A stretch of 62,612 bases of DNA from Deltaproteobacteria bacterium (lineage in GTDB: Bacteria; Desulfobacterota; Binatia; UTPRO1), in NCBI GenBank assembly GCA_029262315.1, contig JAJCZP010000109.1, positions 1 through 62,612 of the forward strand. Reading direction: 5' to 3'. This document shows, in pieces, positions 23,683-29,163 of this stretch. A program made the translations under genes and the position numbers. The notes under the pieces are model-generated. The model worked only from the letters and a program-made list of their open reading frames with translations, was not told the DNA's origin and made no database searches. Numbering within the stretch: the first letter of the stretch is position 1; each line of letters starts with the position of its first letter.

Positions 23683-26364
23683 TTATGAGTTGGGATCCGG
23701 CGGTGGCTCGGCGAGGACCGTGGCTGCCTGCGCTCTCGGAGTCCCGAGGATCATCAGATAGTCACGAATGGCGTCGATCTGCCGGTCGTCGCTCCCGCCG
23801 AGCAAGTCATCGGGCCCGCCAGGATAGAAGCTTGGCATTTTGGTGCCCGGCTGCACCTGCTGTGGATCGTGCAGCCATTCGACGATCCAGTCCGGGTTCA
23901 AGCGGTCCTTCGCCATGGCGAAATCGGGTGCCCAGCCCTCTGGAGGTCCTTCGGGCTTATTGGCACCTTGCACGTGGCACGAGAAGCAGTCGAAGTAGTC
24001 CTTCGAAAGCAGGAGCTTGCCCGCAGTGATGTGATCCTCGGGAATGGCGTCGGCGGCGACGTGCACGAAGGGGACATCGAGTTCGGCCAGCGCCGTGAAA
24101 TAGTTGACGAGGGTGTTGGTCTCCTCGTTCGACAAATTGAACGTCGGCATCCGCACTTGGAGCCAGGGACGAATCGGGATCGGGTCCTGCAGGAAGCCGA
24201 ACAGCCAGTCGGGCTGCACCTTCGACCCTTCGCCGTTCAGTATCGGCGGCGCGAATGATGGCGTCTCCTCGTAGAGCGCGCGGATGAAGCCGCCTTGCTC
24301 GTCCACGACGTGGCACCCGGTACAGTTATACCGAGCGACGAGGCGCTGCCCCTCGACGATTTGCGCCTGGCGGCTGTCGTCGGCGGCGTAGCGATACTTC
24401 TTCGGTACGTATTCTTCGTTGCGGCCCGCGAGGAAGATGATGAGCGCCTCGATATCCTCCTTGGGGAGATCGAAGTTCGGCATCAGCTGTTCGATACGCT
24501 CGGTTTCGTATGTTCGGGGTGTCTTGATCTTGTTGTAGGTCCAATCGTACCAGGTGTGGGGGATGTCGCCGCGCTCGCCAAAGAAGAGCTGGTCCAACGT
24601 CTTGTTCTCGAAGGTGGAAAGCTCGACGCCGATGCGCGACTCGCTCTCCATGCCGGGGATGTCGTGACAACCGGCGCAGCCGAACTTGCGGACGAGCGTC
24701 TCGCCATGCGCCACGGTCGCGTCCGCATCGAGCGCGGCGAGACGAGCGGCGGGCTCCGCCTTCTTGGTGCCGAGCGTGAGCAGGTAGGACGCCACCGCGC
24801 TCGCCTCCCCGTCGGAGAGTCGGAGGCTCGGCATCTTCGATGCGGGCGAATAGTGACGCGGGTTCTTGAGCCAATGGAAGATCCAGCGGGCATCGGTCTT
24901 TTCGGCGATGTTCGACAGGTTGGGGGCGATGTCCTTGCTGGCGCCGAGCATGGGCCCGCGCTCGCCCGCGACGAAAGCATGACAGCCCTTGCAGCCAACC
25001 GATTGGGTCAAGGCCTCGCCTTCGGCGACCAGCGCCGCGTTTGCGGGATCGATACCCGAAGGCGCTGGGTGTTCTTCCAACCAGGCAGAGGATTCCTCCG
25101 CGGAGACGCTCAGGAGATAGGCAGCAACTGCCGTTCCGTCATCGTCGTCGAACATGAAGTTCGGCATACGGGTGTGGGGGCGATAGTCGTGGGGATTGGT
25201 GACCCAGCGGGTGAGCCACGACGGATCCACTTTGGCGGCAACGCGGCGCAGATAGGGTCCGACCTTGGTGAGTTCGCCGTAGTCGGTCACGAGATGACAT
25301 CCGTGACAGCCGAGTTCCTCGAAGAGACGCCGGCCGTCGGCCAGGCGCTCGGCGTGCGGGAGGTTCTCGACGTTCTGATGGCAGCCGTCACAGCGCGCCT
25401 GAAGCTCGTCGCCATGGAGGAGCGGATGCTCCCAGTGAATCACGTGGCCGTGTGCTTGTTCGGTACTGTTCGGCGCCGCTCCCTGCCCATCGTGGCACGG
25501 GGTGCAGCCCACCTGTTCCGGGGGGTGCTTAGCGAGCAGGAGCTCGCGATCTGGGTGCGTCGTCAGTGGTTGCGGGAGATCTTCGAAGCCTTTGCGGTTG
25601 ATGGCGATATGGCAGGACATGCAACGATCGACCCGTGCCACCGGTTGGTTGTAGGCGTTCCGATCGAACTCTTCGAGGATGGTCTGCTCGATCTTCGGAA
25701 CCTTGAATACTCTGAGCGGGCCACCGACGTGCACCAGCAAGCCATCACGCTGCTGCTCGAGCGAGACGGCTTCGGCGACGAGCTTGGTTACCGCGCTATC
25801 GGCCTCGGTGACGCTCGCGCGGAGGGTGGCCATCGCTTCTTCGACTGCCGTGACCTCGCCCTGGACGCGGTCGAGTTCTGCCTGCGCTTTGACGCGGTAC
25901 TCTTCGAGGCTGTCGACCCGAGCGCGCTTCTCTTCGGTTGCTCCCCCGATCTCTTTGGCGTGCTCGTACTCGTACCAGGCTTCTTCGAGCTCGCTCTTCA
26001 CGAAACGAACATCGAGATCCACGGTGGCGAGCTCATCGTTGAGTTCGTCGAGCTCGGTTTGGCGCGCGGACAAGCTGCGTGCGCCCTCGCCTTCATCGAA
26101 ACTCTTCCGGGAGGCAGTGGCGGTCTCGACCGCCTTCAAGTACTCCGGGTCTTCGGCCAGGCGGGCCTGCTCGTTCTGGAAGGCCTGGTCGGCGCGCTCG
26201 TATTCGACTTGCCGGAATTCGTGCTGGTAGTGCTTCCAGGGACGGCGGGAGATGTTGTCGTTCCAGACGGCCCACAACCCGGTCACCACCAGCGCGATGG
26301 CCGAGAGCAGGAACAACACGCTGCGTGATTTCTGTTCCTCGTCTATCTTCTTGGGGTCGCTCAT
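23683..26364 (-). CDS. Membrane-anchored octahaem c-type cytochrome with coiled coil
   Basis: 893 residues. A TM helix at 14-34 anchors the protein. Residues 45-205 are a long heptad-like coiled coil rich in Glu, Ala and Arg. Eight CXXCH sites follow at about 248, 287, 325, 353, 458, 563, 681 and 793 (CMSCH, CTPCH, CDGCH, CHGCH, CKGCH, CAGCH, CTGCH, CFSCH). Several are followed by a Met-Pro segment (HTRMPNF, ASKMPSL, LMPNFDL, RMPTFNL, TKMPSFY) that gives the sixth ligand in mono-haem domains. It sits in the Rieske/cytochrome b operon, which has no cytochrome c1 or f gene, so it is the probable haem c subunit of that complex. Confidence 0.9.
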   Translation of the reverse strand: MSDPKKIDEEQKSRSVLFLLSAIALVVTGLWAVWNDNISRRPWKHYQHEFRQVEYERADQAFQNEQARLAEDPEYLKAVETATASRKSFDEGEGARSLSARQTELDELNDELATVDLDVRFVKSELEEAWYEYEHAKEIGGATEEKRARVDSLEEYRVKAQAELDRVQGEVTAVEEAMATLRASVTEADSAVTKLVAEAVSLEQQRDGLLVHVGGPLRVFKVPKIEQTILEEFDRNAYNQPVARVDRCMSCHIAINRKGFEDLPQPLTTHPDRELLLAKHPPEQVGCTPCHDGQGAAPNSTEQAHGHVIHWEHPLLHGDELQARCDGCHQNVENLPHAERLADGRRLFEELGCHGCHLVTDYGELTKVGPYLRRVAAKVDPSWLTRWVTNPHDYRPHTRMPNFMFDDDDGTAVAAYLLSVSAEESSAWLEEHPAPSGIDPANAALVAEGEALTQSVGCKGCHAFVAGERGPMLGASKDIAPNLSNIAEKTDARWIFHWLKNPRHYSPASKMPSLRLSDGEASAVASYLLTLGTKKAEPAARLAALDADATVAHGETLVRKFGCAGCHDIPGMESESRIGVELSTFENKTLDQLFFGERGDIPHTWYDWTYNKIKTPRTYETERIEQLMPNFDLPKEDIEALIIFLAGRNEEYVPKKYRYAADDSRQAQIVEGQRLVARYNCTGCHVVDEQGGFIRALYEETPSFAPPILNGEGSKVQPDWLFGFLQDPIPIRPWLQVRMPTFNLSNEETNTLVNYFTALAELDVPFVHVAADAIPEDHITAGKLLLSKDYFDCFSCHVQGANKPEGPPEGWAPDFAMAKDRLNPDWIVEWLHDPQQVQPGTKMPSFYPGGPDDLLGGSDDRQIDAIRDYLMILGTPRAQAATVLAEPPPDPNS

Positions 26365-26406: not shown

Positions 26407-26580
26407 TCACGCTGCGGCGCGGTGCTCGATCAGCCGACCGATGTAGAAGATCGCCGAGCCTAGCATCAACAAACGCAACTCCGCGCTCATCGCGTTCGGC
26501 TCGGTCAGTCCGACGAACAGCGCATAGCCCACGTGGGCAAAGCCGATCAGCTGTAGCAGCTTGCCGAAATAGAACACCAT
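26407..26580 (-). CDS. 57-residue two-helix membrane protein in the bc operon
   Basis: Reads MVFYFGKLLQLIGFAHVGYA onward for 57 residues and is too short for most gene callers. Two hydrophobic helices are visible: residues 8-25 and about 35-50 (LRLLMLGSAIFYIGRLIE). It lies between subunit IV (47 bp upstream) and the octahaem cytochrome gene (42 bp downstream), same strand. It is a plausible small subunit or assembly factor of the Rieske/cytochrome b complex. No named family is recognised. Confidence 0.65.
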   Translation of the reverse strand: MVFYFGKLLQLIGFAHVGYALFVGLTEPNAMSAELRLLMLGSAIFYIGRLIEHRAAA

Positions 26581-26626: not shown

Positions 26627-27385
26627 TCAGATGTTCAGCCATGGTGTCACCCAGACGTACTTGATCGACGCCAGGTGCCGCATGAGCATTTTGATGACGA
26701 CCGCCCACATGTTCAGGAAGAGGAACGATGTGAGGCCGAAGCGGACGGCACCCCACCGTTGCATGAACTCCTTCCCCTTGAGTCGTATGATCCACCAGTA
26801 CATCAGCGCAGTGCCGACGGCGAAAAAGCCAATCACCGACGCGCCGCCAACGATGAATGTCAGTACAGGGTCGCGCACGCCGAGAAGATAGGGCAGATCG
26901 ACTGCCGTCATGGCCTCGACCTTGTGGGCGTCCCATGGTTCCCAGAACCAGAACCAGTTCCAGCCGGGACCTCGGAGGAAAGTCCCGATGATGATGAGCG
27001 AGATCCAGAGGATGTGGAAGCCCGTATAGAACGTAATGATCTCGTACTTCCGGTCTTTGAAGCAGTAGTAGCCGTTGCCCTTCGGATTGATGTCGATGAA
27101 GGGCAGCACCATGAGGCCGAGAATGATCAGGCTGGGAAGGACGACCCCGGCGTGCCAGGGATCGAAGAATACGAGCATCTCCTGTAGCCCCAGGAAGTAC
27201 CACGGCGCCTTGGAGGGGTTTGGCGTACGCGTTGGATTGGCGGGCTCTTCGAGCGGTGCGTCGACGAGCAGCGACCAGACGATCAGCAGCAACGTGGTGA
27301 AGATCGCGCAAAGAAACTCCGAGCGCACCAAGTACGGCCAGGTGTGGATCTTGTCGTCGATCGGAGGACCCTTGCGTGCAGCCAC
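26627..27385 (-). CDS. petD: Cytochrome b C-terminal / b6f subunit IV-like protein
   Basis: 252 residues with a GTG start. It corresponds to the C-terminal (non-haem) half of cytochrome b, split from the haem half as in b6-type complexes. TM helices include LCAIFTTLLLIVWSLLV, VVLPSLIILGLMVLPFI and ITFYTGFHILWISLIIIGTF. The quinol-site motif PEWY reads APWYFLGLQEML, so the Glu is replaced. The protein is longer than plant subunit IV (160) and has extra C-terminal helices (VLTFIVGGASVIGFFAVGTA, SFLFLNMWAVVIKMLM). It follows the 26-residue TM peptide by 2 bp. Confidence 0.9.
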   Translation of the reverse strand: MAARKGPPIDDKIHTWPYLVRSEFLCAIFTTLLLIVWSLLVDAPLEEPANPTRTPNPSKAPWYFLGLQEMLVFFDPWHAGVVLPSLIILGLMVLPFIDINPKGNGYYCFKDRKYEIITFYTGFHILWISLIIIGTFLRGPGWNWFWFWEPWDAHKVEAMTAVDLPYLLGVRDPVLTFIVGGASVIGFFAVGTALMYWWIIRLKGKEFMQRWGAVRFGLTSFLFLNMWAVVIKMLMRHLASIKYVWVTPWLNI

Positions 27386-27387
27386 GA

Positions 27388-27468
27388 TTAGTCCTTCCTC
27401 GGCTTTGCCAGGACGTACAGCACCCAGATCATGACGCCGAAGATGACCGGCAGAACCAAGACTCGCAC
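27388..27468 (-). CDS. 26-residue single-TM peptide between cytochrome b6 and subunit IV
   Basis: GTG start at 27468 with an AGGGG ribosome site 7-8 bases before it, immediately after the cytochrome b stop (27479). The peptide has one hydrophobic helix (LVLPVIFGVMIWVLYVLA) and a basic end (KPRKD), giving a one-helix protein with cytoplasmic positive charges. The stop lies 2 bp from the subunit IV start, so spacing in the operon is fully explained by this gene. Size and place recall the PetG/PetL/PetN one-helix subunits of b6f complexes, but sequence relation to them cannot be claimed. Confidence 0.6.
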   Translation of the reverse strand: MRVLVLPVIFGVMIWVLYVLAKPRKD

Positions 27469-27478
27469 GACAACACCC

Positions 27479-28246
27479 CTAGAGTGGCGGGCCCGAGAAC
27501 CCGTCGCGGCGAATTCGCCAAAAGTGAACGGCCAAAAACAGACTGGTCACGAGGGGGAAGAAGATGCAGTGCAAGATGTAGAAACGCATCAATGTATGCG
27601 TTCCGATCTCACCCCCACCGAAGAGGAAGGCCCGCGCGTCGTAGATGGGATTGACGCCGAGCAGCTCCGCGCCAGGTCCTTCGTTCCCGAGAAACGGGGT
27701 GGCACGTCCCATGTTTGATCCGACCGTCACGGCCCAAATGGCCAGCTGGTCCCACGGCAGCAAGTAGCCGGTGAAGCTCAGCAGAAGCGTCAGGACGAGC
27801 AGGATGACACCCACGATCCAGTTGAACTCGCGTGGTGGCTTGTAGGATCCCGTGAGGAACACGCGAAACATGTGCAGCCACACCGCGATGACCATCGCGT
27901 GCGCCGCCCACCGGTGCATGTTCCGCATCAACATACCGAAGGGCATGTCGAACTCGAGATACTTCATGTCGGCGTACGCGTACTCCGCGGTCGGCCGATA
28001 GTAGAACATGAGATAGATGCCGGTAACGACGGTCACGAGGAACATCAGGAAGGTGATGCCCCCCATGCACCAAGTGAAGCGCATGCGCACGGCGTGACGC
28101 CGTACCTTCGAGGGGTGCAGGTGGAGCCACACGTTCCCGGAGACCATGAGAATCCGGTTGCGTGCGCTGTCGTCGTACCCGTGGCGAAACATCGATCGCC
28201 ACACGTCACTATCGGTGATCTGACGCTTGATATCTTCCCACGCCAT
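27479..28246 (-). CDS. petB: Cytochrome b6-like protein with haem c_n cysteine
   Basis: 255 residues, the haem-bearing half of cytochrome b with four main TM helices. Haem ligands follow the b6 pattern: two His 13 residues apart in helix B (from NMH to WLH) and two His 14 residues apart in helix D (from ILH to AVH). A Cys at about residue 60, in FTWCMGGIT, matches the cysteine that covalently binds the extra haem c_n (c_i) in b6f and Firmicute b6c complexes. It carries out quinol oxidation with the Rieske protein encoded 31 bp upstream. Confidence 0.93.
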   Translation of the reverse strand: MAWEDIKRQITDSDVWRSMFRHGYDDSARNRILMVSGNVWLHLHPSKVRRHAVRMRFTWCMGGITFLMFLVTVVTGIYLMFYYRPTAEYAYADMKYLEFDMPFGMLMRNMHRWAAHAMVIAVWLHMFRVFLTGSYKPPREFNWIVGVILLVLTLLLSFTGYLLPWDQLAIWAVTVGSNMGRATPFLGNEGPGAELLGVNPIYDARAFLFGGGEIGTHTLMRFYILHCIFFPLVTSLFLAVHFWRIRRDGFSGPPL

Positions 28247-28277: not shown

Positions 28278-28799
28278 CTAGGCCTTGAGACTTAGAAAGG
28301 CGCCTGGCTTACCCCAGTCGCCCTTCTCGTAGAGATACTTCACGCCGGAATCGACGACGAGTTGACCATCCTCTGCGAGCGAGACCCGAAACCGCTCCAG
28401 CGGTCGCGGAGCCGGCCCTTCGAAGTTGATCCCGGTTTTGAAGAATCCGCTACCATGACACGGGCACTTGAACTTATTCTCGGCCTGAAGCCAGCGCGGC
28501 GTGCAGCCGAGGTGCGTACACTTGGCAAACAGTGCGTAGAAGCCTTCCTCAGTGCGAATGATCCAGGTGCGGTACTCTTTTTTGAACTTTTCGGAAACCT
28601 CACCGATAGTGAAATCGCTGGGCATGCCTGCCTTGAAGGCCGTCGGCGGCACGAACAGAACGCGCGGAAAGGCCGAACGAAGAAACCCGAGGAGGGTTAG
28701 GCCAGAAAAGGCGTGAAACATGCCCCAGCCCATGCGTCCGATAAAATCGCGACGCGACCAGAGAGAGGCGGTTGTCTTGCTCACGGGCTCTTTTGCCAT
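28278..28799 (-). CDS. petC: Rieske [2Fe-2S] protein
   Basis: 173 residues. The N-terminus carries a twin-arginine motif (SRRDFIG) and one TM helix (about 24-44), so it is probably Tat-inserted and anchored. The cluster site is intact: CTHLGC at 94-99 and CPCHGSGF at 112-119, with the Cys-Cys disulfide pair. It accepts electrons from quinol in the complex with the cytochrome b genes downstream. The ATG at 28799 fits the family; an in-frame upstream start at 28847 would overlap the previous gene. Confidence 0.95.
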   Translation of the reverse strand: MAKEPVSKTTASLWSRRDFIGRMGWGMFHAFSGLTLLGFLRSAFPRVLFVPPTAFKAGMPSDFTIGEVSEKFKKEYRTWIIRTEEGFYALFAKCTHLGCTPRWLQAENKFKCPCHGSGFFKTGINFEGPAPRPLERFRVSLAEDGQLVVDSGVKYLYEKGDWGKPGAFLSLKA

Positions 28800-28818: not shown

Positions 28819-29163
28819 TCAGCGTCGCACGAGCGACGCGACCACACCCCAGACGATCATGACCACCGCAGCACCGAACAGCAGCATTCCGACCGGGGGG
28901 AAGAGGAAGAAGAGTACGGCGCCGGCGCCAAACACCGGAATCGCCATCCCCACGGGGTTGAACGGAATGTCGTCACTCCCGGTATGCCCAGACTCGACGA
29001 TCTCCGCGGTTTCCAGCGCGTCGTTGAGCAAGCCGATCGTGAATTCCTTGAGTTCGCTACGGACTCCCGGTGATCCCGCGTCCTCCGCTCCATTTATCGT
29101 CTTCACGATTTCCCGAGCCAACTCCTCGACGCGTCGCTCTGCGAGGGCAACTCGATCATCCAT
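28819..29163 (-). CDS. Small membrane protein at the head of the bc operon
   Basis: 114 residues. The N-terminal half is a predicted charged helix (RVALAERRVEELAREIVKTI); the C-terminal half has two TM helices (MAIPVFGAGAVLFFLFPPVG and MLLFGAAVVMIVWGVVASL). It is 19 bp upstream of the Rieske gene on the same strand and is therefore the likely first gene of the operon. No named family is recognised; it could be an accessory subunit or assembly factor. Confidence 0.6.
   Translation of the reverse strand: MDDRVALAERRVEELAREIVKTINGAEDAGSPGVRSELKEFTIGLLNDALETAEIVESGHTGSDDIPFNPVGMAIPVFGAGAVLFFLFPPVGMLLFGAAVVMIVWGVVASLVRR

Follow-up and report, generated by a model that had tools for sequence, protein, structure and literature searches.

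Does the 26-codon reading frame between the genes for a cytochrome b6-like and a subunit IV-like protein in a Candidatus Binatota genome encode a subunit of the electron-transfer complex, and is it a relative of the small Pet subunits of cytochrome b6f? We followed this frame, here called S1, in a window of 62,612 nucleotides, by which we mean the whole stretch of DNA that was analysed, and in related genomes. In the window, S1 is part of an operon-like series on the minus strand, given here in the order of transcription:

28278..28799 (-), Rieske iron-sulfur subunit, 173 aa (Pfam PF00355, 5.1e-8)
27479..28246 (-), cytochrome b6-like subunit, 255 aa (Pfam PF00033, 4.7e-42; PDB cytochrome b6 profile match, 5e-50)
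27476..27480 (-), AGGGG, putative ribosome-binding site of S1, 7 nt 5' of the GTG and overlapping the b6 stop codon (GAGG/AGGA counterparts in nearly all standalone relatives)
27388..27468 (-), S1, candidate small TM peptide, 26 codons, MRVLVLPVIFGVMIWVLYVLAKPRKD, GTG start, TAA stop (same-frame conservation, purifying selection, single gain on the tree)
26627..27385 (-), subunit IV-like protein, 252 aa (Pfam PF00032, 1.1e-6; PDB 1q90_D, 6e-4; fused to S1 in some relatives)
26407..26580 (-), S2, second small subunit candidate, 57 aa, two hydrophobic stretches, directly 3' of subunit IV (conserved across Binatia loci)
23683..26364 (-), multiheme cytochrome c, 893 aa, eight CxxCH counted in the translation (Pfam PF00034 and related cytochrome c families)

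The S1 operon and related complexes

The b6 stop codon and the subunit IV start codon are 93 nt apart, and the S1 ORF occupies 81 nt of this gap, with its GTG ten nucleotides past the b6 stop and its TAA two nucleotides short of the subunit IV GTG. Coordinates, frame, start, stop, AGGGG site and neighbours of S1 are as an earlier note on this DNA gave them. The single TM helix and basic end which that note had described are likewise borne out, with a best 19-residue hydropathy window of 2.7 (Kyte-Doolittle) followed by AKPRKD. The b6-like subunit contains the motif FTWCMGG, whose cysteine we take to occupy the site at which b6 has its heme c_n cysteine. H42 and H44 of the same protein (LHLHPSK; gene 27479-28246, minus strand) are invariant among 11 aligned Binatia b6 proteins; models of anammox b6 place an unexpected dimer-interface heme b on a histidine of the N-terminal region (PMC12954380). 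Directly upstream of the Rieske gene, a 114-aa protein with C-terminal TM stretches is encoded (28819-29163, minus strand), for which NCBIfam returned no significant match.

The joint presence of a Rieske protein, a split b6/subunit IV pair and a large multiheme cytochrome c in one operon resembles the arrangement in Kuenenia, Nitrospina and Methylomirabilis, whose b6-type complexes have a five-TM subunit IV and multiheme c (PMC12954380, PMC3578206). In contrast to the S1 operon, the Nitrospinota and Methylomirabilota loci that we examined contain neither S1 nor S2, and the passages covered of the published operon descriptions make no mention of an S1-like peptide. Among named genomes, loci related to the S1 operon belong mostly to Candidatus Binatota/Binatia. 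Alternative complex III has been named as the complex III of all Binatota, and in the passages covered of that genome paper we found no description of this b6-type operon (PMC8262859).

Conservation and forms of S1

Relatives were located via subunit IV; in these, the gap contains the corresponding open frame, which encodes MRVLVLPILFCVMIWALYVLAKPRDL-like sequences, and the GTG of the window aligns exactly with the ATG of the relatives. Loss of the frame or its interruption by stops, which the earlier note had regarded as fatal to its reading, was looked for in the relatives and not found, and the comparison of synonymous with nonsynonymous change that it had proposed gave pS of 0.309 and pN of 0.098 (15 independent pairs, no sequence shared; Fisher p 2e-15). 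Substitutions at codon positions 1, 2 and 3 are distributed 48:20:90. Judged from these comparisons, the codons of S1 are under purifying selection. Among 39 distinct sequences, V3, P7 and A21 are conserved in all 39, R2 in 38 and P23 in 36. A helical face in this conservation was not significant (periodicity peak at 101 degrees per residue, permutation p 0.26).

With a profile built from 23 S1 sequences, 59 matches at E up to 0.1 were obtained in 148 Binatia genomes, and 45 genomes had a strong match. Each of the 45 strong matches (E < 1e-6) precedes a subunit IV gene by 6-254 bp in the same orientation, whereas none of the 14 weaker ones adjoins subunit IV. The motif R-V-L-x-x-P ... L-Y-x-x-A-K-P recurs at the same frame and start position in 45 Binatia genomes, and nearly all standalone relatives have a Shine-Dalgarno-like AGGA or GAGG 8-16 nt before the start. 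Many of these genomes are metagenome-assembled, and the pattern spans dozens of independent assemblies including two single-contig ones (G021 and G061). S1 is hence very probably a real, hitherto undescribed small part of a b6-type electron-transfer complex, as far as sequence comparison can tell.

S1 occurs in four forms. The short form of the window type has one helix and 26-31 aa, a two-helix form has 50-56 aa (L005, L021, L022, L026, L138), the Binataceae form has an N-terminal extension (MGGVFSWLLHQGIVRVLSVP...), and in three loci (L006, L011, L033) the two-helix form continues in frame into subunit IV as its N-terminal part. This natural fusion supports the assignment of S1 to the complex. 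Since a similar first helix (M-S/P-x-E ... P-G-G-R-V-L) is found in two separate parts of the tree, the comparison suggests that two helices are possibly the older state and that the 26-residue form is a shortened one. An AlphaFold2 model of the L033 fusion (74 rows), with a mean pLDDT of 63.8 and a pTM of 0.51, has a pair of helices at the N-terminus, whose position this confidence is too low to fix. MAFFT misaligned the free S1 peptides when they were added to the alignment, and that version was set aside.

Distribution of S1 and S2

When b6 and subunit IV of 80 complexes are concatenated for a tree (quick search), the presence of S1 requires exactly one change. S1 is carried by all 42 complexes of one clade (SH-aLRT 85); the 26 remaining Binatia complexes and the 12 of the outgroup, all with intact b6 and subunit IV, lack it. 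The outgroups represent the next-closest lineages, namely Nitrospinota, Methylomirabilota, Tectomicrobia and Polyangia-type Myxococcota; none of 35 outgroup loci contains an S1 match, and 11 outgroup genomes gave only three weak profile matches. The statement of the earlier note that the gap between the b6 and subunit IV genes is filled is correct for the window, but the gap is empty in about half of the Binatia and in outgroup loci. With one change on the tree and no match in the outgroup loci, the simplest history of S1 is a single gain within Binatia, followed by retention in the complexes sampled. It is inherited and encoded together with the core subunits, as seen in the location of all strong matches beside subunit IV and in the single tree change. 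Since the same core is present without S1 in about half of the Binatia and in all outgroups, these comparisons also indicate that it is dispensable for the core enzyme in some lineages.

Two of these three weak matches, from two Methylomirabilota genomes and with E of 4e-4 and 0.02, were inspected and rejected, as they represent other one-TM ORFs (MRQILIIGLSYGITPILMALTILLAWWLAKRR...) whose neighbours are unrelated to a bc complex. As a separate observation, a conserved one-TM ORF of 39-41 aa, MRQI(L/V)IIxLxYGITPIxMALTILLAWWLAKR, is present in two Methylomirabilota genomes and is unrelated to the bc operon (L142:2004-2129 and L143:2058-2177, both minus strand).

S2, which follows the pattern MxFYLAKxLQAxGxADVGYALFVGLT...ELxLxxxGxxxFYxGRxLExR, is present in 42 of 45 Binatia loci, the remaining three being short of sequence, and in 89 of the 148 Binatia genomes (subunit IV in 91). 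None of the 35 outgroup loci contains it, Pfam and NCBIfam hold no known family for it, and S1 and S2 show no similarity to each other. From this distribution, S2 is probably a class-wide two-TM subunit of the same complex, S1 being a later addition. In Tectomicrobia-like complexes (L095, L099, L102, L104), a different short one-TM ORF (M-x-Q-x-x-R-Q-R-K-H-L-W-W-D-A-C-G-x-x-x-A-A...) directly follows subunit IV. Small TM subunits may have joined such complexes on more than one occasion.

Comparison with known small subunits and proposed role

S1 resembles PetG, PetL, PetM and PetN as a very small single-TM protein beside a split cytochrome b6/subunit IV core. Its short form (26-31 aa) fits the Pet size class of single TM helices with about 29-38 residues; two-TM forms occur in other families. 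S1 differs from the Pet subunits in that its gene lies between those of b6 and subunit IV, in that it can have a second TM helix or be fused to subunit IV, and in that its lineage is one without a known photosystem (PMC8262859). Neither the Pfam matches of the 23 S1 members nor the PDB matches of the profile include a Pet family or chain at E up to 10, and hhalign gave probabilities below 1% against all four Pet subunits, a comparison of limited power at 26-37 aa. Of the four Pet yardstick sequences, those of PetG and PetN were confirmed against PDB chains. The PetG/PetL/PetN-type properties named in the earlier note thus hold in the sense of a conserved, subunit-like single-TM peptide of a non-photosynthetic b6-type complex, but not as membership, for which neither a family match nor an hhalign signal was obtained. 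Its remark that such subunits have not been generally described for bacterial b6-type complexes outside phototrophs agrees with the part of the open literature that was covered.

Pfam, NCBIfam and PDB sequences contain no convincing relative of S1. The only PDB chain matched by the profile is AcrZ at an E of about 1, FbcQ not being among the matches; the AcrZ match reflects generic hydrophobic similarity (VxxVPxxxxxxLxY), and AcrZ has a different partner complex, AcrB. Like S1 as read here, AcrZ and CydX are short one-helix accessory peptides that were missed by annotation. CydX is a small single-TM partner of cytochrome bd. A further parallel is subunit IV (FbcQ) of the Rhodobacter sphaeroides bc1 complex, which stabilizes the complex and raises its activity about threefold (PMC10041115). 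FbcQ, too, is a lineage-specific supernumerary one-TM-helix addition to a bacterial Rieske/cytochrome b complex; unlike S1, it has 124 aa, is encoded outside the fbcFBC operon and belongs to a bc1 rather than a b6-type complex. By analogy with these proteins, S1 would work like PetG/PetN of b6f or Rhodobacter bc1 subunit IV, with no homology to any known family being detectable.

S1 is most simply read as a subunit of the complex, given that it is tied in the genome to subunit IV alone, is fused to it in some relatives and is strictly retained. We are largely confident that S1 is a translated, lineage-specific accessory subunit which would contribute one rim helix beside the N-terminus of subunit IV, with its C-terminus on the n-side, and aid assembly or stability. 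We infer from sequence that S1 is translated, is present in the purified complex, has this orientation and has a stabilizing role; by analogy with PetG/L/N and Rhodobacter bc1 subunit IV, the role is likely structural. The subunit IV N-terminus of b6f lies on the n-side. The fusion fits an S1 C-terminus and a subunit IV N-terminus on one and the same side of the membrane, the n-side if subunit IV starts as in b6f. The AKPRKD end fits the positive-inside rule and points to the same orientation. PetG has a cytoplasmic C-terminus close to subunit IV (PMC9342900). S1 would thus form one transmembrane helix in the complex of Rieske protein, cytochrome b6, subunit IV and multiheme cytochrome c, its basic C-terminus being cytoplasmic and next to the N-terminus of subunit IV. 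The helix would most likely pack against the rim near subunit IV and, like PetG and PetN in b6f, help to assemble or stabilize the dimer or the core formed by subunit IV and b6.

Other readings of S1 are far less probable. With low probability, S1 acts as an assembly or insertion factor or as a translational coupler during synthesis of b6 and subunit IV and is gone from the mature complex. Its position between the two genes and a GAGGAAGG-like site in its last codons, ahead of the subunit IV start, would suit such a function, but S1 is permanently fused to subunit IV in three loci, and coupling alone leaves the conservation of R2, V3, P7 and A21 unexplained. More speculative still is a Binatota-built ring of tiny TM subunits, in which S1 and, across the class, S2 would take the place of the fence that PetG/L/M/N form in b6f and would hold a pigment, as the b6f fence does. 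Binatota have carotenoid genes and most bacteriochlorophyll synthesis genes with no known reaction centre (PMC8262859).

That S1 is a true, divergent PetG/PetL/PetN/PetM member sharing an ancestor with the b6f subunits is very improbable. Size class, single helix, basic n-side end and b6-type partner agree with such descent, yet there is no detectable similarity, even though in the PDB one PetG or PetN sequence suffices to retrieve its own family across cyanobacteria and plants, and the absence of S1 from outgroups and the rest of the Binatia points to a gain inside Binatia. Least of all do we expect a chance ORF in an intergenic spacer: a frame of only 26 codons with a GTG start and no database family might be taken for one, but conservation, codon-level selection, exclusive context, Shine-Dalgarno-like sites and fusion contradict it.

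The literature treats as open, for bc1, why Rieske/cytochrome b complexes acquire small TM subunits again and again (PMC10041115). S1, read as an accessory subunit, is a gain that can be placed on a tree and was kept in every descendant complex sampled, and its one-helix, two-helix and fused forms make up a ready-made set in which the function of such a helix could be tested. On this reading, S1 also illustrates that genuine subunits of respiratory complexes from uncultured phyla escape gene finding; they would be absent from structures or AlphaFold3 models based on annotated genes alone.
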